DNA of 64,000 bases from Prevotella scopos JCM 17725. Its GTDB lineage: Bacteria > Bacteroidota > Bacteroidia > Bacteroidales > Bacteroidaceae. This document shows, piece by piece, positions 7,401-15,581 of the stretch (positions are counted from its first letter, which is position 1; each line of letters starts with the position of its first letter). The stretch covers positions 1,736,001 through 1,800,000 of the forward strand of contig NZ_CP072390.1 in assembly GCF_018127785.1 (NCBI RefSeq), given 5' to 3'. The position numbers were made by a program, and so were the translations under genes. The notes beneath the pieces are model-generated. The model saw only the letters and a list, made by a program, of their open reading frames with translations. It was not told the origin of the DNA and did no database searches.

Positions 7401-7422
7401 ATCTTTCAATCCTTTTGAGCCT

Positions 7423-9285
7423 TTATATCTCTTGCATGTCATGTAGTTTCTTATAGTAACCTTCGATGTCCATAAGCTCATCGTGCGTTCCTCGCTCTAC
7501 AATCTCACCTTCATGCAGTACGCAAATCTCATCAGAATTCTTAATAGTTGATAGTCGATGAGCCACAGCAATAGTCGTTCGAGTCTTCATTAACTTATAA
7601 AGAGCATCCTGTACAAGGCGTTCGCTCTCTGTATCGAGGGCTGATGTAGCTTCGTCAAGGATGAGGATTGGAGGATTCTTAAGGATAGCACGCGCAATAC
7701 TTACACGCTGACGCTGTCCACCAGAGAGCCTACCGCCACGGTCGCCGATGTTTGTGTCGTATCCATGCTCACTATGAAGGATAAACTCATGAGCGTTGGC
7801 AATCTTCGCAGCTTCGGCTATTGCCTCGTCTGTTGCATTGACACCGAAGGAGATGTTGTTCTTGAAACTATCGTTGAAGAGAATTGCCTCTTGGTTTACA
7901 TTACCAATCAGCTGGCGGAGGTCATGTACTCCTAAGTCCTTAACATTGATTCCGTCAATGAGAATCTCACCTTCCTGCACATCGTAGTAACGTGGGATGA
8001 GGTCGAGCAAGGTTGACTTTCCGCTACCGCTCTGTCCTACCAAGGCAACCGTCTTACCTTTTGGAATAACAAGATTAATATTCTTCAATACCCAGTGTAG
8101 CTCTGGATAATCTTCATCGTCCTTACCATCAGTATAAGCAAAACTGACGTTACGGAACTCTATCTCATGCTCGAAACTATCAATATGAACAGGTTTCTCA
8201 GGGTCTTGTATCTTCACTTCTGCCTTAAGAATCTTATCAATGCGCTCCATTGAGGCAAGTCCCTTAGGGATATTGTAGCCTGCACGAGAGAATTCCTTCA
8301 GTGGATTGATAATGCTGTAGAGGATAACAAGATAGTAGATGAAGGTAGGACCGCTGATAATTGGAGATTCGCCCAAGACAAGGGTACCACCAAACCAAAG
8401 TACGACAACAATCATAACCGTTCCGAGGAACTCACTCATCGGGTGTGCTAACTGCTGACGGATGTTCACGCGCATGATGTCGCTGCGGTATTGTGAGTTA
8501 ATCTTGTTAAAGCGTTCGTTCATCATTCCTTCAGCACAGAAGGCTTTGATGACTCTCAAACCACCCAAGGTCTCTTCTACCTGACTCATCGTGTCACTCC
8601 ACAACTTCTGTGCTGTCATACTATTCTGCTTTAGCTTTCTACCAACAAAGCCCATGAACCATCCGAAGATAGGTACGAAGATGAGCGTGAAGAGGGTCAA
8701 CTGCCAAGAGATAACAAGTAGTGTGGTAAAATAAATAATGATAAGAACAGGGTTCTTAAAGAGCATGTCAATAGATGACATGATAGAATTGTCAACCTCT
8801 TGTACGTCACCACTCATGCGAGCGATGATGTCTCCTTTTCGCTCCTCACTAAAGAAACCAAGAGAAAGGGATGTTATCTTTTCATAGAGTTGGTTACGAA
8901 TGTCACGAACTACACCTGTTCGGATAGGAATGATTGATGCAGAAGAAAGGAAATAGGCACCAGTCTTTAGGAAAGTCATAAAGGCAAGTAGCAATCCAAT
9001 AACCAATAAGACAGTTGTTGGACCCCAACTAGTGATGTATATCTGCGTATAATAATCTGCATTGTTCGATAGTACCTCCTTGAAAGAGCCTTCACTCCAA
9101 GCCATTGCACGCATCGCTCCCGTTCCTGCATCAACTTTAAAAAGAATCTGAAGGAGAGGGATAAGGGTTGCAAAGGAGAATATATTGAGAATTGCTGACA
9201 ATATGTTGAAAATGATTGACAGCACAAGATACTTCTTATAGGGCGGTACGAACCTGCGTAGTACGTGTATGAATTCCTTCATCAA
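7423..9285 (-). CDS. MsbA-like ABC exporter (fused membrane and ATPase domains)
   Basis: The 620-residue protein joins an ABC exporter membrane domain (six helices, about 18-330) to an ATPase. Walker A is GQSGSGKST at 417-425, the signature LSGGQ at 520-524, Walker B LILDE at 541-545, and the switch His in VAHRL at about 576. All catalytic residues are present. MsbA-type half-transporters dimerise and flip lipid A-core across the inner membrane. The genes downstream (sulfatase-fold transferase, lipid A acyltransferase) support a lipid or LPS substrate over a drug. Either of two adjacent ATGs (9285 or 9282) can be the start. A -7 element TATATTTGC is at 9314-9322. Confidence 0.88.
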   Translation of the reverse strand: MMKEFIHVLRRFVPPYKKYLVLSIIFNILSAILNIFSFATLIPLLQILFKVDAGTGAMRAMAWSEGSFKEVLSNNADYYTQIYITSWGPTTVLLVIGLLLAFMTFLKTGAYFLSSASIIPIRTGVVRDIRNQLYEKITSLSLGFFSEERKGDIIARMSGDVQEVDNSIMSSIDMLFKNPVLIIIYFTTLLVISWQLTLFTLIFVPIFGWFMGFVGRKLKQNSMTAQKLWSDTMSQVEETLGGLRVIKAFCAEGMMNERFNKINSQYRSDIMRVNIRQQLAHPMSEFLGTVMIVVVLWFGGTLVLGESPIISGPTFIYYLVILYSIINPLKEFSRAGYNIPKGLASMERIDKILKAEVKIQDPEKPVHIDSFEHEIEFRNVSFAYTDGKDDEDYPELHWVLKNINLVIPKGKTVALVGQSGSGKSTLLDLIPRYYDVQEGEILIDGINVKDLGVHDLRQLIGNVNQEAILFNDSFKNNISFGVNATDEAIAEAAKIANAHEFILHSEHGYDTNIGDRGGRLSGGQRQRVSIARAILKNPPILILDEATSALDTESERLVQDALYKLMKTRTTIAVAHRLSTIKNSDEICVLHEGEIVERGTHDELMDIEGYYKKLHDMQEI

Positions 9286-9313
9286 CTAATCTTCTTATCT
9301 TATATTCAATTTT

Positions 9314-9322
9314 GCAAATATA
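9314..9322 (-). promoter_or_regulatory. Promoter -7 element for the ABC exporter operon
   Basis: Read on the minus strand the bases are TATATTTGC, a full match to the Bacteroidetes -7 box TAnnTTTG. It lies 29 bp before the ABC exporter ATG. No clear -33 TTG partner was seen. Confidence 0.6.
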
Positions 9323-9334
9323 GCTATAAATAGT

Positions 9335-9361
9335 AAAACCGCAAAATTGTTTTGCGGTTTT
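9335..9361. terminator. Terminator hairpin between miaB and the ABC exporter
   Basis: A perfect 12-bp stem (AAAACCGCAAAA with TTTTGCGGTTTT) around a 3-nt loop. It lies 22 bp beyond the miaB stop and ahead of the exporter promoter. It has T runs on both strands, so it should separate the two transcription units. Confidence 0.85.
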
Positions 9362-9382
9362 ATCTTTATATGTAAAGTATAT

Positions 9383-10711
9383 TTATACTTCTTCTCCAAA
9401 GAGTGTGGCACTGGTTGAGCCTGTAATACGTACACGGACTGTCTCACCAATATGATGATTGCCACGTGGCATGACTACAGCCTTATTCTGTGGAGTACGT
9501 CCCATCAGCTGTTCACGACTACGTTTTCCAAAGCGTTCGATGAGGATATCAAACTCCTTGCCCTCGTCTTTCTTGTTCTGTTCAGCTGAGATCTCGGTCT
9601 GTAAGCGAATCAACTCATTCAAACGACGTATCTTAACTTCCTCTGATATGTTATCAGGAAGATGTTTTGCAGCATAAGTACCTGGTCGTTCAGAATACTT
9701 GAACATAAAGGCTGAATCGAAACCAACCTCACGCATCAACGAGAGCGTTTCTTGGAAGTCTTCTTCCGACTCATCGTGATAACCGATAAAGATATCAGTT
9801 GTAAGTCCACAGTCAGGGACAAGACGACGAATAGCAGCCACTTTCTCAAGGTAGTCCTCACGGGTGTACTTTCTGTTCATCAGTTTCAACACTTTGTTAC
9901 TACCGCTCTGAGCAGGGAAGTGGATGTGATTACAGAGGTTAGGCTCAGTAGCTACCGCCTCAATAATATCCTCTGTCATATCTTCTGGGTTAGAAGTCGT
10001 GAAGCGCACACGCATATCTGGTACGCTCTGTGCCACCTTATGCAACAATTCTGCAAAGGAAACACCATTCTCAGGACGCTTACCATTAGGCAACAAGCCG
10101 TACGAATTAACGTTCTGACCTAAGAGTGTAACCTCCTTAAAGCCCTTGTCATGCAAGTCCTTAACCTCCTTCAAGATACTTTCAACATCACGTGAGCGCT
10201 CACGACCACGGGTGAAAGGCACAATACAATAGTGACAGAAGTTATTACAACCACGCATGATACTAACGAAGCCCGACACTCTATTGCCACCAATACGCTG
10301 TGGAATCACATCACGATAGGTCTCAGTAGTAGAGAGTTCGATATCCAATGCGTTTCTACCATTCTCACACTGCGCTATCATATCAGGCAAATTAAGGTAA
10401 GAGTCAGGTCCACACACAAGGTTGGCGTGGTGATTTTCAACTAGGTCATCCCTTACTCTCTCTGCCATACATCCCAACACACCTAGAATTAAGTCGCGAC
10501 CTTTCCTCTTCTCTGCGTGTAATGCCTCTAAACGATTGTATATCTTGTTCTCTGCGTTCTCACGTATAGAGCAAGTATTGAGAAAGATAGCATCAGCCTC
10601 ATCCTCGTTTTCACATACGTCATAGCCTGCCATCTTCATGACAGAAGCCACAACCTCAGAGTCTGCCACATTCATTTGGCAGCCGTATGTCTCAATATAT
10701 AGTTTCTTCAT
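9383..10711 (-). CDS. miaB: tRNA methylthiotransferase MiaB
   Basis: The 442-residue protein has the three MiaB domains. The N-terminal UPF0004 domain has its cluster-binding cysteines (YGCQMN, LNTCSIRENAE, LGCMAER). The radical SAM domain has the CX3CX2C motif in RGCNNFCHYCIVPFTRGRERSR, where the RG-RER pattern is typical of MiaB, not MtaB or RimO. A C-terminal TRAM domain carries RNA binding. It adds the methylthio group to N6-isopentenyl-A37 of tRNAs that read codons starting with U, using two 4Fe-4S clusters. Length is normal. It has its own promoter box (10740-10748) and a strong terminator. Confidence 0.97.
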   Translation of the reverse strand: MKKLYIETYGCQMNVADSEVVASVMKMAGYDVCENEDEADAIFLNTCSIRENAENKIYNRLEALHAEKRKGRDLILGVLGCMAERVRDDLVENHHANLVCGPDSYLNLPDMIAQCENGRNALDIELSTTETYRDVIPQRIGGNRVSGFVSIMRGCNNFCHYCIVPFTRGRERSRDVESILKEVKDLHDKGFKEVTLLGQNVNSYGLLPNGKRPENGVSFAELLHKVAQSVPDMRVRFTTSNPEDMTEDIIEAVATEPNLCNHIHFPAQSGSNKVLKLMNRKYTREDYLEKVAAIRRLVPDCGLTTDIFIGYHDESEEDFQETLSLMREVGFDSAFMFKYSERPGTYAAKHLPDNISEEVKIRRLNELIRLQTEISAEQNKKDEGKEFDILIERFGKRSREQLMGRTPQNKAVVMPRGNHHIGETVRVRITGSTSATLFGEEV

Positions 10712-10748: not shown

Positions 10749-11167
10749 CAAAATTTATCGCATATCATCGAAAAACCACCTGACTATTTGAGTCTTATGG
10801 CGTGCTAACACAGTCTTTTTATCTAATTAAGTCGCTTAATAAACATTTCTCATACAAGTTTTGTCAGTGATATTTCATTAATATTATAAAGGCATTTATT
10901 GTTCTTCCGAAATATGGAGCGATAAACTAATCTATTACATAATAAGGTACACAGAGAAAGAGAGAACAGAGCTAAAGTAGCACAAAGAGCGACAGAGGTG
11001 AAGCGTATAGATTCCTGATAACTTTTGGAATAAAGGCTATTCATAAACCTTGTGCATAAAATCTCTAATAAAACTACCAAACACCCTCCGTGACTCCACG
11101 CATCGATAGTACCTCCGTGACTACCATAACGTTGTATTTAACTGCCCTCCGTTCCCTCTATTTATTT

Positions 11168-11229
11168 GTGTTATATTTCTTAAAATTATAAACGCAAGAG
11201 ACAAACCTTACCACTCTAAAGACCCATAA
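11168..11229 (+). repeat. Left direct repeat flanking the ietAS-like cassette
   Basis: The core AACGCAAGAGACAAACCTTA followed by CCACTCT (11191-11217) recurs at 15287-15313 with one base changed. Similarity extends on both sides (GTG...ATTTCTTAAAA before; AAGACC-ATA after). The two copies are in the same orientation about 4.1 kb apart and enclose only the two-gene cassette. Confidence 0.75.
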
Positions 11230-11330
11230 AATGTTATTCATGCAAGAAAATAACTTTTATCTCTCACAAAACACAAACTAAGATTAAGAGGAAACCATTG
11301 CAAAACAGCTATTTTAGTTTTTTTTAGGTT

Positions 11331-11410
11331 GCTGTCATTTTAACATCCTCAATTAACATTATGTATAATAGCACTTTACACGCTTCTATAAGATGATAGA
11401 ATGACAGGAA
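11331..11410 (+). repeat. 80-bp repeat, copy 1
   Basis: It starts GCTGTCATTTTAACAT and ends ATGACAGGAA. The same ends occur in inverted orientation at 57743-57823 with almost the same total length. The ends GCTGTCA and TGACAGG are near-inverted repeats of each other, so this may be a very small mobile or structured element. Confidence 0.5.
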
Positions 11411-11760
11411 ACTATTTCTGGATATTTTCATTATATATGCAAAAGATTATGGATGAAACAAAAGGGGCTAAGAAAATTAAGTTTAAAACAACTTATTATT
11501 ATGTCTTATTTTCTTCCTCCACAAATTTCCACAGAATAAAAAAAACACATAATTGATAATCATCGCTTTATACGAAACAACCACAGAGTTAGCAACAGTT
11601 TCTCACAGATTTTTTATGAACTTTCTTTATGGAATTCCGCGAGAATTAACTAAGAAAAAAGTGGGAGTTTCAGAAACCAACAACTTATGTCGATGATTCT
11701 TATCACTCCAGCTTTCTTCAATTGATAATCAATTAGGATTGTCTGTAAAGAAAGTTGGCT

Positions 11761-14163
11761 CTATGTTCCTTGTGCTATTTGTATTCCAATACGATTTTCA
11801 ATAGCCGCTTCTACAGCATTATATATATCTGTTTCTTTCGTTTCTATAGCTACAATAAGAGAATAGGACACTACATTATCCACGTTAGTTAATTTCCGAT
11901 TTTTCCACCATCCTGGTCCAGGAAATACAACTATTTTATCCATCTCTGCTAAATCTGCAGCGGTACATTTTATCCAATCAGACTGTACAGTTCCCCTTTC
12001 TCTTCTTTGCTGTTTGACATTCCACCTATCAGGTTCATTATCAGTAGTCTTTTCCCCTTCATACTTATTTCGACGACAAAGAAATTCTTCTTGTGTTTCT
12101 GTAGCAGTCTTTAGATCAAAGCGTAATGTTGCGGATGGATAACGATACTTATTGGTTCTTCCCGTATAACCTGGCGAAGGCTTTACATAATAAGATAAAG
12201 TAATACGAATCCTTACGTCTTCGCTACCCATTTCTTCCAATAATTCTTTTGGCCAAGGCAAATCATAGTAGTGCATTTGACCATAAATATTACAGTTGTC
12301 TCCTTCTGTATAAGGTTTTAGATGATTCTCAAAGATATAGGTAGCACATTTTTCATTGCTAAATAGTGCTATATCCTCATCAGGTACACCATATCCACAT
12401 AAAGACATACGCTCCTCTATGCTATTAATACGCTTCATTTCATCAGTCCATTGAGCGGAATGTATCATAAGTCCACGAATAGAAAGCATAGACAATTGCG
12501 GATTCTCAACCTTTATCCGCGCAGCAAGTCTTGCAGCTAATCCTGTTGCACCACTTGTAGCACAAAATGACTCTAAAGGCTCTTGTAAATTATTACTGGT
12601 AGTAACAAGACTCAAATCAGGATGTGATGTTTCTTTGTATATGTTGTGGAAAGCCACATTGCCACCTTCCATTACAATATCAGGTTTGTTACGCTTTTCT
12701 TTCCATGGAAATGAACTACAAGAATATGGCGAAATACCTCCTAAGGCTGCTAAGGGTCTATAAGCAGGATTATTTATAGTTGCCTTTTCTGTATAAGCTC
12801 CAACTGTCAGCGCATTCCATGCTTGTGCAGGGCTTTTTACAGTATACGCTTTACAAGATTCAATATAATTGTTAGAATCAACACCACTAATCTCTACATT
12901 TCCTGCAGAAACTAAGACTAATCTATCACACAGCCCTTGGTGGTAGATACTTTCATCAAGTGCTGCTGAGCTTGAAGTGGCTATTCCATTGTATGAGCTT
13001 TCGTCTGTAATAGCCATACATTGTATTGAAGCTCCCATATTTGAAGCTTTATCAACGGCTTCTTCTATGACAGCTCCATAAAACTCTTTGAGGGTTTCAT
13101 ATCCTTCTTCATAAATTTTAATAGAGGACAATGAATGATGTACGTCTACCGACATATTTCTTTGGTAAGCTATATCAGTCAAATCACCTAACAAGGCAAG
13201 TCCAGCCATACCTGTACCATGGTTGGTTTTGTCTATTGCATCCTGCACACCTATGGCTACATCCATACGTTTGTCTGGAAGTGAAAAATTTAGCAACTCA
13301 TGCGCATTGTTTACTCCAGAATCCAATATACCTACTATTACATTCTCCGCATCATCACAAAATGTAATCTGATTTTTTATGAGTTCACTCCATTCCCGAT
13401 TCTCTGTATTAGTCCCTATGAGAATGGAAGGTTCTTTGTAAGGGCGAATACTTTCAATATAGCCCAATGAAAAAGGAAGTGAGCATAATTGTTGCTTGCT
13501 TGCCCCAATCAACCACACGTTAACACCATCGAAACGCAAGGGCTCTGTAAGCTTTTCAATTCCAAGTTGTAACAAAGTTGTTTCAATTGTTTCGTCGGTA
13601 TTTTCTTTACTATGACTTAACCACAATTCATAACGATAAAAACCATCCTCTGGTATCGCATCAAATTCTGCTGCTGATACGTAGAGGGTTCTGATATCAG
13701 TTGCTACTATATTATTAATTGGAGCTATTATTTTTTCATTGCAAGGAATCCCTTTTGGTGTGTTCTTTTTTTCATAATCGTCAACTTTCTTATCAAGCCA
13801 GTTCTTCTTGTCTTTTTTCACGAATACAGTTACGTCGACACTCGACTCATTACCTTTATCCGTGACTTTCATGATAGTAGCACCTCCATGCCCATCTTGT
13901 TTGCCCAACGAAACAGGTATAAACTTCTTATCCATCTCTATATCAACATATACTCCGTTCGCCATGGGAAAACCTTGCTTGTTTCTTTCTTCTTGACAAG
14001 CAATAGCATGAGCAATTGCAGCTTTATAACATTCTCTCACTAACGTAGCGTGTGCTGTTCTATCTCTTTGAGGAAGTTGCTCCCCCTTAAAAGGAGTGTT
14101 CCATGGTGAAAAATCATAATCTTCGGCTATATTGTTGCCTAAAAAGAAATGTTTTTTATGCAT
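11761..14163 (-). CDS. ietS: Subtilisin-like serine protease of an IetAS-type defence pair
   Basis: The 800-residue protein has no signal peptide and is therefore probably cytoplasmic. The N-terminal 260 residues are unassigned. The S8 peptidase domain follows with an intact catalytic set: Asp281 (VGILDSGVN), His315 (NHGTGMAG), oxyanion Asn422 (SAGN) and Ser537 (CATSGATGLAAR). The last 200 residues look like a beta-rich C-terminal domain. The gene starts 15 bp after the AAA ATPase gene on the same strand, the arrangement of the IetA (ATPase)/IetS (S8 protease) pair. That pair is known from plasmid incompatibility in Agrobacterium and is listed as an anti-phage system. That the pair acts here in defence is inference; the chemistry is clear from the motifs. 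Confidence 0.85.
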   Translation of the reverse strand: MHKKHFFLGNNIAEDYDFSPWNTPFKGEQLPQRDRTAHATLVRECYKAAIAHAIACQEERNKQGFPMANGVYVDIEMDKKFIPVSLGKQDGHGGATIMKVTDKGNESSVDVTVFVKKDKKNWLDKKVDDYEKKNTPKGIPCNEKIIAPINNIVATDIRTLYVSAAEFDAIPEDGFYRYELWLSHSKENTDETIETTLLQLGIEKLTEPLRFDGVNVWLIGASKQQLCSLPFSLGYIESIRPYKEPSILIGTNTENREWSELIKNQITFCDDAENVIVGILDSGVNNAHELLNFSLPDKRMDVAIGVQDAIDKTNHGTGMAGLALLGDLTDIAYQRNMSVDVHHSLSSIKIYEEGYETLKEFYGAVIEEAVDKASNMGASIQCMAITDESSYNGIATSSSAALDESIYHQGLCDRLVLVSAGNVEISGVDSNNYIESCKAYTVKSPAQAWNALTVGAYTEKATINNPAYRPLAALGGISPYSCSSFPWKEKRNKPDIVMEGGNVAFHNIYKETSHPDLSLVTTSNNLQEPLESFCATSGATGLAARLAARIKVENPQLSMLSIRGLMIHSAQWTDEMKRINSIEERMSLCGYGVPDEDIALFSNEKCATYIFENHLKPYTEGDNCNIYGQMHYYDLPWPKELLEEMGSEDVRIRITLSYYVKPSPGYTGRTNKYRYPSATLRFDLKTATETQEEFLCRRNKYEGEKTTDNEPDRWNVKQQRRERGTVQSDWIKCTAADLAEMDKIVVFPGPGWWKNRKLTNVDNVVSYSLIVAIETKETDIYNAVEAAIENRIGIQIAQGT

Positions 14164-14178
14164 ATCGTTCTACTTTGT

Positions 14179-15138
14179 TCAGCTAATTTGATAACTTAAC
14201 TGATGACGCATATTTACAATAGTCTGAACCAGTGAAAAATCTATCTTCTTGTCATTAAGAAGAGACTCCTTGAAGATGTCAGAACATAACATTTTTATTT
14301 CAGCGTGACTCATACCTTCAAACAAGGGTTCCGCTGATGCAAAATCTAAATCCTTAGCCGTATAAAGATATTCATGCAACAATGCTAATCGCTGCTCTCT
14401 ATCTGGTAAATTGTACTCTATGACATCATCAAACCGCCTAAACATTGCTTTGTCTATAGATTCAATACTGTTAGTAGCAGCTATAATAAAACTATCAGAA
14501 TCGTCACGCTCCAATAACTGAAGAAAAGTATTGAGTATTCTTCGCTGCTCTCCGACCTCATTATCCATACCACGCTGAGAACCAATAGCATCAAATTCAT
14601 CAAACAGGTACACAGCTGGCACTTCGTCTATAAAGTCAAAGATACGACCAAGCTTCTGTCCCGTTTCACCCATAAACTTGGTCACCACTTTTTCAGTTCT
14701 AACAACAAAGAAAGGAAGGTTGAATTCCTTTGCAAGTACACTTGCAGTCATTGTCTTACCTGTTCCAGAAGCCCCATATAGCAAAAGTTTTCTACGATTG
14801 ACAAGCCCATATTTCCTTAGTGTTTCTTTTTTAAGGTATTCTTTGATTATTCTATCCAATTTTTCCTCCACACTATTACTCAGGATAAGGCTCTTTATAT
14901 CGTCATAAGTCTCTAACTGAAGCAACAAGTCATCTACTTCTTTATTCTTTGATACTAAACGAACAGTCCCTGAAGATGTGTTCTTTTGCCTAAGCAACTC
15001 TTGTATAGTTCGTGCAATTATAGCATGACCATTCCTTGCCTCCACAGCGGAAATCTGTAGGGCAACCTTTCTGAACTGCGTATCATCATTGTTTACATGA
15101 TTACGTATCAGTGATAATATTTGATCAGCTGTAGCCAT
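14179..15138 (-). CDS. ietA: AAA ATPase of an IetAS-type defence pair
   Basis: The 319-residue protein has an N-terminal helical region (1-105) and one AAA module. Walker A is GASGTGKT at 122-129, Walker B YLFDEFDAIG with Asp180/Glu181, sensor 1 Asn in AATNS at about 223, and arginine-finger type residues in FRRFDD at about 234. It should form a ring and couple ATP hydrolysis to activation of, or substrate delivery to, the protease encoded 15 bp downstream. A strong -7 box lies upstream (15167-15175), so the pair is a two-gene operon. Similar classic AAA proteins serve in many pathways; assignment to IetA rests on its partner. Confidence 0.85.
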   Translation of the reverse strand: MATADQILSLIRNHVNNDDTQFRKVALQISAVEARNGHAIIARTIQELLRQKNTSSGTVRLVSKNKEVDDLLLQLETYDDIKSLILSNSVEEKLDRIIKEYLKKETLRKYGLVNRRKLLLYGASGTGKTMTASVLAKEFNLPFFVVRTEKVVTKFMGETGQKLGRIFDFIDEVPAVYLFDEFDAIGSQRGMDNEVGEQRRILNTFLQLLERDDSDSFIIAATNSIESIDKAMFRRFDDVIEYNLPDREQRLALLHEYLYTAKDLDFASAEPLFEGMSHAEIKMLCSDIFKESLLNDKKIDFSLVQTIVNMRHQLSYQIS

Positions 15139-15166
15139 AAATAAGATATATACAATATTTGCTATT

Positions 15167-15175
15167 GCAAAGATA
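15167..15175 (-). promoter_or_regulatory. Promoter -7 element for the ietAS-like operon
   Basis: Minus-strand TATCTTTGC matches the -7 consensus and lies 29 bp ahead of the AAA ATPase start. A TTG at 15190-15192 is only 14 bp upstream, closer than usual for a -33 box. Confidence 0.6.
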
Positions 15176-15263
15176 GCATCTTATATTGACAATAAAGACT
15201 TTTATGCTCAAAAAAATGTCATTTCATGTTTTTAACTATAAAAAAGAAGCTTTCTATTTCTCT

Positions 15264-15333
15264 GTGTGTCATTTCTTAAAAAACTTAACGCAAGAGACAA
15301 ACCTTATCACTCTTAATTTCTGAAGACCTATAT
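15264..15333 (+). repeat. Right direct repeat flanking the ietAS-like cassette
   Basis: It repeats 11168-11229 in the same orientation. The 27-bp core at 15287-15313 differs by a single base (T for C), and weaker similarity extends to about 70 bp. Confidence 0.75.
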
Positions 15334-15370
15334 TTATGACTTGTCTTACTTATATTTTACCAATGTATTA

Positions 15371-15439
15371 AGGTTCAGCACGAGTGGTGCGAAGGCTTAG
15401 TACATGTGGTGCGGAGGCTTAATACCATGTGTGCGGAGG
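15371..15439. repeat. 22-bp phased palindromic array (GCACC type), locus 1
   Basis: On the minus strand three units of 22 bp follow each other, each beginning CCTCCGCAC or CCTTCGCAC and containing a short dyad such as GCACCACTCGTGC. The units are spaced exactly 22 bp. The same unit type occurs at 29984, 40978, 50624 and 57517. Confidence 0.75.
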
Positions 15440-15581
15440 AACAAATATCCTACAATATACCATCAATATAGATAAAACTTATTATCAAGAAAGGGCTAAA
15501 CAAACGCTATTTAGGTTTATTAGATAGTAAGATTTGCAAAACTTACAATCTCGTTTACGCCCTTTATCGGATATTTTTCCG

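Follow-up and report, generated by a model that had tools for sequence, protein, structure and literature searches.

What is a pair of genes for an AAA ATPase and a subtilase doing, on its own, among the housekeeping genes of a Prevotella genome? The pair lies in the 64,000-nucleotide stretch of Prevotella scopos JCM 17725 analysed here (contig NZ_CP072390.1, positions 1,736,001 to 1,800,000, hereafter the window), and an earlier reading of the sequence, the original prediction, had proposed it as a candidate IetA/IetS (IetAS) defence operon. By analogy with characterised relatives we consider it probable that the pair is a horizontally acquired IetAS that acts as a toxin-antitoxin type abortive-infection module. 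Both open reading frames (ORFs) are present as predicted, with the ATPase gene first and the protease gene on the same strand, its ATG 15 bp from the ietA stop. The genes are:

14179..15138, minus strand: ietA, 319 aa, with a three-helix N-terminal bundle (4-55) and a classical AAA module (about 70-319)
11761..14163, minus strand: ietS, 800 aa, an S8 subtilase with a four-part layout

With regard to family, the profile searches place both proteins in IetA/IetS and in no other named pair. The top PADLOC families for the ATPase are PDLC02196 (E 5.3e-66, residues 2-310) and PDLC04232 (E 1.1e-65, model positions 1-306 of 330), and the protease matches PDLC02198 (E 2e-35, residues 275-792, model positions 254-783 of 795). 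The nearest other ATPase family in PADLOC is TRIP13, at E 3.5e-13 against 5.3e-66 for IetA. The TRIP13 module of CBASS has HORMA and nucleotidyltransferase partners, and we rejected this assignment as the TRIP13 match is far weaker than that to IetA and the partner gene encodes a subtilase. The locus is a full, sound and ordinary addition to a defence family that is already listed.

The function can be approached through two relatives. In SGI1, excerpts of Huguet 2016 (PMC5006074) report that SgiT is toxic, that SgiA neutralises it and that every SgiT is beside an SgiA, and in the mycoplasma pair, excerpts of PMC8562856 report that E. coli counts fall with T133, by 5 logs or by 3 depending on the assay, and that A132 neutralises T133. 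Excerpts of PMC10732053 state, citing others, that ietAS is activated by phage replication proteins, and a table row of a review (PMC10286901) groups ietAS with phage proteins such as DNA polymerase, helicase and terminase. It is because of the toxicity and neutralisation in relatives, and the reported activation by phage replication proteins, that we favour restraint by IetA and release on infection. The IetAS assignment of the original prediction stands on the profiles and is refined in that the SGI1 and mycoplasma pairs act, according to these excerpts, as toxin-antitoxin systems with the protease as toxin.

In the mechanism that we propose IetA would be the antitoxin or regulator, and IetS, a subtilase of the cytoplasm that carries a pro-domain-like segment of its own, the toxin. 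In the uninfected cell IetA would stop IetS from cutting cell proteins. Infection would free IetS, either through a phage replication protein or because IetA activity is lost, and IetS would then cut intracellular proteins and halt the cell before phage production. For the Prevotella copy we infer the trigger, the target, the ring assembly, the pro-domain and the defence itself.

In the case of IetA, residues 118-242 match Pfam AAA (7e-28), and the residues of what we take to be Walker A (G122, G125, G127, K128, T129), Walker B (D180, E181), the sensor (N223) and the RR pair (R234, R235) show no variation in an alignment of 10 members, which bears out the claim of an ATPase with all motor residues. 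IetA is most likely an AAA motor of the PAN/Vps4/FtsH type. Its identity to the window protein exceeds that of IetS in all five pairs compared: 89% and 76% respectively for a Segatella hominis plasmid, 72% and 54% for G024, 76% and 57% for G104, 75% and 54% for G170, and 52% and 37% for G067. The VIA-align rows hardly test IetA before residue 57 or IetS before residue 248. Near-identical IetA proteins carry the labels Prevotella melaninogenica and P. jejuni.

In the case of IetS, residues 273-573 match Pfam Peptidase_S8 (1.1e-41). The codons of the catalytic triad, with positions computed from the start at 14163, are:

13321..13323, minus strand: catalytic Asp281
13219..13221, minus strand: catalytic His315
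12553..12555, minus strand: catalytic Ser537

Our IetS alignment holds 120 listed proteins, the window protein included, of 1,305 matched in all, with Asp281 aligned in 117 (3 gaps), His315 in 116 (3 gaps, 1 Tyr) and Ser537 in 105 (15 gaps). Among the 76 of at least 780 aa, again including our own, Asp281 and Ser537 are present in 76 and His315 in 75, and the triad that had been described as intact is kept in nearly all full-length listed IetS. There is no hydrophobic stretch at the IetS start, judged by eye from the sequence, in keeping with the description of a signal-less protease.

IetS has a variable N-terminal part (residues 1 to about 150), an S8 catalytic domain (about 258-605) and a C-terminal beta domain (about 605-775), and the mean share of the commonest residue in the alignment is about 0.59 for residues 21-220 against 0.76 for 281-800. 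The first 260 residues had been suggested to hold a sensor or a pro-part. Residues 176-241 probably form a subtilase pro-domain-like fold, and their strand-helix order fits an I9-type pro-domain; the part before them is variable. The pro-subtilase 3afg tops the Foldseek list for IetS, but with an rmsd of 21 A, and there was no Pfam I9 match in 59 IetS members at E up to 5.

Some listed IetS proteins are shortened. Thirteen of 646 aa (P0044-P0046, P0048-P0057) lack a stretch within about 450-600, the gap being residues 441-593, with loss of Ser537, in the three checked, and two of 553 aa (P0106, P0107) lack 283-528 and with it His315. These alleles may be natural silenced toxins, or else assembly errors. 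In one genus locus (L080, G403, about 7412-9867) a frame change near residue 695 splits ietS, unlike the copies in G329 and G170, which read through whole.

The original prediction had placed the pair as an island among housekeeping genes, and this is made exact by an empty site between miaB and the U32 peptidase gene in three relatives (G003, G026 and G010), in which the two genes are divergent neighbours. The spacing between them is 5,006 bp in the window, against 302 bp in G003, 302 bp in G026 and about 100 bp in G010, and comparison with G003 defines the insert:

10792..15532, no strand assigned: inserted segment, with nothing homologous at the empty site of G003; the G003 alignment ends at 10791 and resumes at 15533

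The other 9 of the 12 stretches fetched are arranged otherwise, 8 being without miaB beside the U32 gene and one (G028) having it co-oriented at a distance of about 1 kb; the genus thus has no fixed neighbourhood here. The insert of about 4.7 kb contains only the IetAS operon and AT-rich flanks, with no mobility genes recognised in it, and GC is 0.31-0.32 in the flanks, 0.38 in the operon and 0.44-0.46 in the neighbouring genes. Of the 398 genomes of the genus, 7 (our own included) have close IetA relatives (E 1e-100 or better), the remaining matches of that search being mostly distant AAA proteins, and there is a more distant IetA, each with an adjoining IetS relative, in 7 further genomes (G183, G034, G007, G019, G390, G010 and G255). 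The operon is away from miaB and U32 in G024, G104, G403, G329 and G170, and the G067 contig is too short to tell. DNA identity to the pair on the Segatella hominis plasmid is 75% and is confined to the operon. A single IetS query against genome and viral contigs found no relatives, such scans reaching close relatives only. Judged from the empty site in three relatives, the patchy spread, the GC contrast and the similar plasmid pair, the window pair is accessory and probably horizontally acquired. On the plasmid (L065, 5401-6528) there are phospholipase D-like and metallophosphoesterase annotations just upstream of the pair.

Across the family the dependence is one-sided: IetS is seen only with IetA, and IetA is also seen without IetS. 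An IetS profile search of viral contigs gave 37 loci, of which 3 start at the contig end and all 34 that have upstream sequence have IetA directly upstream. For viral IetA there were 138 matches, from which 80 loci were kept: 52 are paired, 5 have an IetS fragment, 8 are cut and 15 are without IetS. These 15 represent 13 different proteins (L131-L133 are identical), or 12 without L154, in which the downstream ORF reads by eye like an IetS start. The genus loci (L078-L091) comprise 12 pairs, one tail-to-tail arrangement (L085) and one contig without a visible IetA (L084). In a Bacteroidota sample of 296 genomes, 31 have an IetA match at E 1e-60 or better, our own included; about 1.3-1.5 kb downstream was readable at these loci, and two listed places gave no locus. 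The 29 loci beyond our own are paired in 19 cases, tail-to-tail in 2 (L213, L214), cut in 2 (L202, L212), lone in 4 (L188, L191, L206, L208) and unresolved in 2 (L215, L216). The one-sided pairing agrees with the counts in excerpts of Huguet 2016 (412 SgiA homologues against 187 SgiT; PMC5006074) and fits a toxin-antitoxin logic. The three tail-to-tail loci L085, L213 and L214 form a well supported IetA clade (100/100).

There are points that weigh against a toxin-antitoxin defence module. No PADLOC IetS match begins before residue 185, leaving the N-terminal part unmatched; the best NCBIfam matches, NF042959 IteA (182.5 bits against a cut-off of 510) and NF042956 IteS (67.1 against 900), miss both equivalog cut-offs widely; no defence genes were recognised by eye in the ORFs adjoining the operon; and in the excerpts of PMC5006074 no post-segregational killing was obtained when SGI1 sgiAT was driven by its putative own promoter. 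With regard to the cut-offs, the plasmid pairs of Rhizobium etli and Geminocystis, which we used as yardsticks, have PADLOC scores similar to those of the window pair and also miss them (for R. etli IetS no NCBIfam match at E 1e-10 was found), and thus the cut-offs describe a narrower group. By its profile matches the locus is IetAS in the PADLOC sense, outside the NCBIfam IteA/IteS equivalogs.

The alternative that survives best, which we nonetheless think rather unlikely, is a selfish addiction or incompatibility module, in which IetS would poison cells that lose the element and IetA would be the antidote, with plasmids and islands being stabilised and any phage effect secondary. Such behaviour is described for pTiC58, through citing papers, and for SGI1 in the excerpts of PMC5006074, and IetS relatives are present on 452 plasmid records, 328 of them predicted to be conjugative. 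However the window copy is on a 1.86-Mb contig (of three in a 3.3-Mb genome) and the insert is without any recognised mobility gene, and activation of ietAS by phage replication proteins is stated, second hand, in PMC10732053.

It is also possible, and we consider it unlikely, that the pair is a proteolytic machine in which IetA, as activator, unfolds chosen proteins, perhaps those of phage, and feeds them to IetS in the manner of PAN or FtsH. This is the best mechanistic rival, since the fold of IetA is an unfoldase fold. However IetA is often without a nearby IetS, and closed chambers are not known for subtilases. In both relatives for which there are data the ATPase neutralises the toxicity of the protease, according to excerpts of PMC8562856 and PMC5006074. 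An ordinary housekeeping or stress protease pair with no defence role is highly improbable: the operon does sit among core genes with no recognised defence gene beside it, but the same site is empty in three relatives, the pair is rare in the genus, and its relatives are on plasmids and viral contigs.

The IetA genes without recognisable IetS in viral contigs are at L120, L122, L131, L134, L144, L148, L161, L166, L167, L172, L174 and L182, several of them amid phage structural genes, and a PHROG search was made with 10 neighbour proteins from 9 of these 12 loci (L166, L167 and L172 were outside the set). Eight of the 10 matched: a head-tail adaptor beside L120, tail (L122), terminase (L131), major head protein (L144), integrase (L148), RecT-like (L161), endolysin (L174) and portal (L182); no PHROG match was found for L144:6679-7593 or the L134 neighbour protein. 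Every lone copy listed keeps Walker A, Walker B and the RR pair intact, and the N-terminal helices are missing from the alignment in three (L166, L167, L182). An IetA tree was made with 105 rows, after dropping cut and identical rows, those below 200 aa, and L215 and L216, and with L154 counted as paired. Sixteen rows are lone and need at least 12 changes, so the lone state was reached many times; the shuffled mean is 15.2 and just 4 of the 500 shuffles reached so low a count, which points to some clustering of the label, each change being a gain or a loss.

Lone IetA as a phage speciality was rejected, as 4 of the 29 Bacteroidota loci are also lone. In two of these (L206, L208) IetA directly precedes a gene that reads by eye like a type I restriction specificity subunit. 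Phage-borne lone IetA was not found in the literature searched at the level of titles and abstract starts. We suggest, tentatively and as less likely than the converse, that where a lone IetA gene sits with phage head, tail and packaging genes it is a captured antitoxin serving to disarm host IetAS, a state reached many times, and that with the pro-domain-like segment of IetS this would make IetA rather than IetS the controlling part of the family, the Prevotella copy included. If true, this would be anti-defence built from half of the defence system itself.

Turning to the surroundings of the operon, it had been credited with its own promoter, for which there is one candidate element:

15168..15175, minus strand: TATCTTTG, a possible Bacteroidota-type -7 promoter box, weak, starting 37 bp ahead of the ietA ATG

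The label depends on what we take to be the Bacteroidota -7 consensus. The box lends the claim some support, but no -33 box was found at the usual spacing from it and a -7-type box is also present in 20% of shuffled 200-bp stretches, which leaves the case for a promoter weak. A 64-nt direct repeat brackets the operon:

11157..11220, plus strand: left copy, 64 nt, 83% identical to the right copy
15253..15316, plus strand: right copy, 64 nt

The exact 20-mer core of the repeat occurs only twice in the 3.3-Mb genome, which at first suggested the unique ends of a mobile element, but looser searches gave degenerate copies elsewhere, in stretches 67-81% identical, for which reason we dropped the repeats as att sites or transposon ends. 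Imperfect direct repeats are on both sides of the G024 operon region; no two-sided repeats were among those listed for L080, L081, L082 or L065, and the L079 sequence stops too close to the operon for a judgement. An intergenic repeat at window positions 15370-15440 is interspersed through the genome, with 38 or more related places.

IetAS turns up in many genome surveys, and its mechanism was, according to excerpts of PMC9958689, still awaiting description as of 2023. Here the family gains a full, clean copy in a human-associated genus, and since relatives show precisely the empty site, insertion and loss are open to direct comparison. Simple questions follow from the one-sided dependence together with the lone phage IetA genes: does a lone phage IetA silence IetS, and does IetS mature by removal of a pro-domain? 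What makes the locus interesting is that the mechanism is still open, that relatives show the exact empty site, and that lone IetA genes occur in phage contigs, the last being the most interesting by-product.

In comparison with known systems, the window pair resembles IetAS as modelled in PADLOC, named after ietA-ietS of pTiC58, in having the ATPase gene before the protease gene, an AAA and an S8 protein and an intact triad. It differs in that the N-terminal part of IetS is outside the models and in lying in a chromosomal insert that has no recognised mobility genes; the likeness is to the models and not to the sequences of pTiC58 themselves. The sgiA-sgiT pair of SGI1 (S026-S025), likened to it by description and not by sequence, also has the AAA gene upstream of the subtilase gene, with the AAA protein as antitoxin and the subtilase as toxin in excerpts of PMC5006074, but is on an integrative mobilizable element. 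The mycoplasma TA132/3 (A132-T133), again likened by description and not by sequence, is in excerpts of PMC8562856 an operon for an AAA ATPase and a subtilase, with direct repeats beside one copy, and is reported there as a toxin-antitoxin system.
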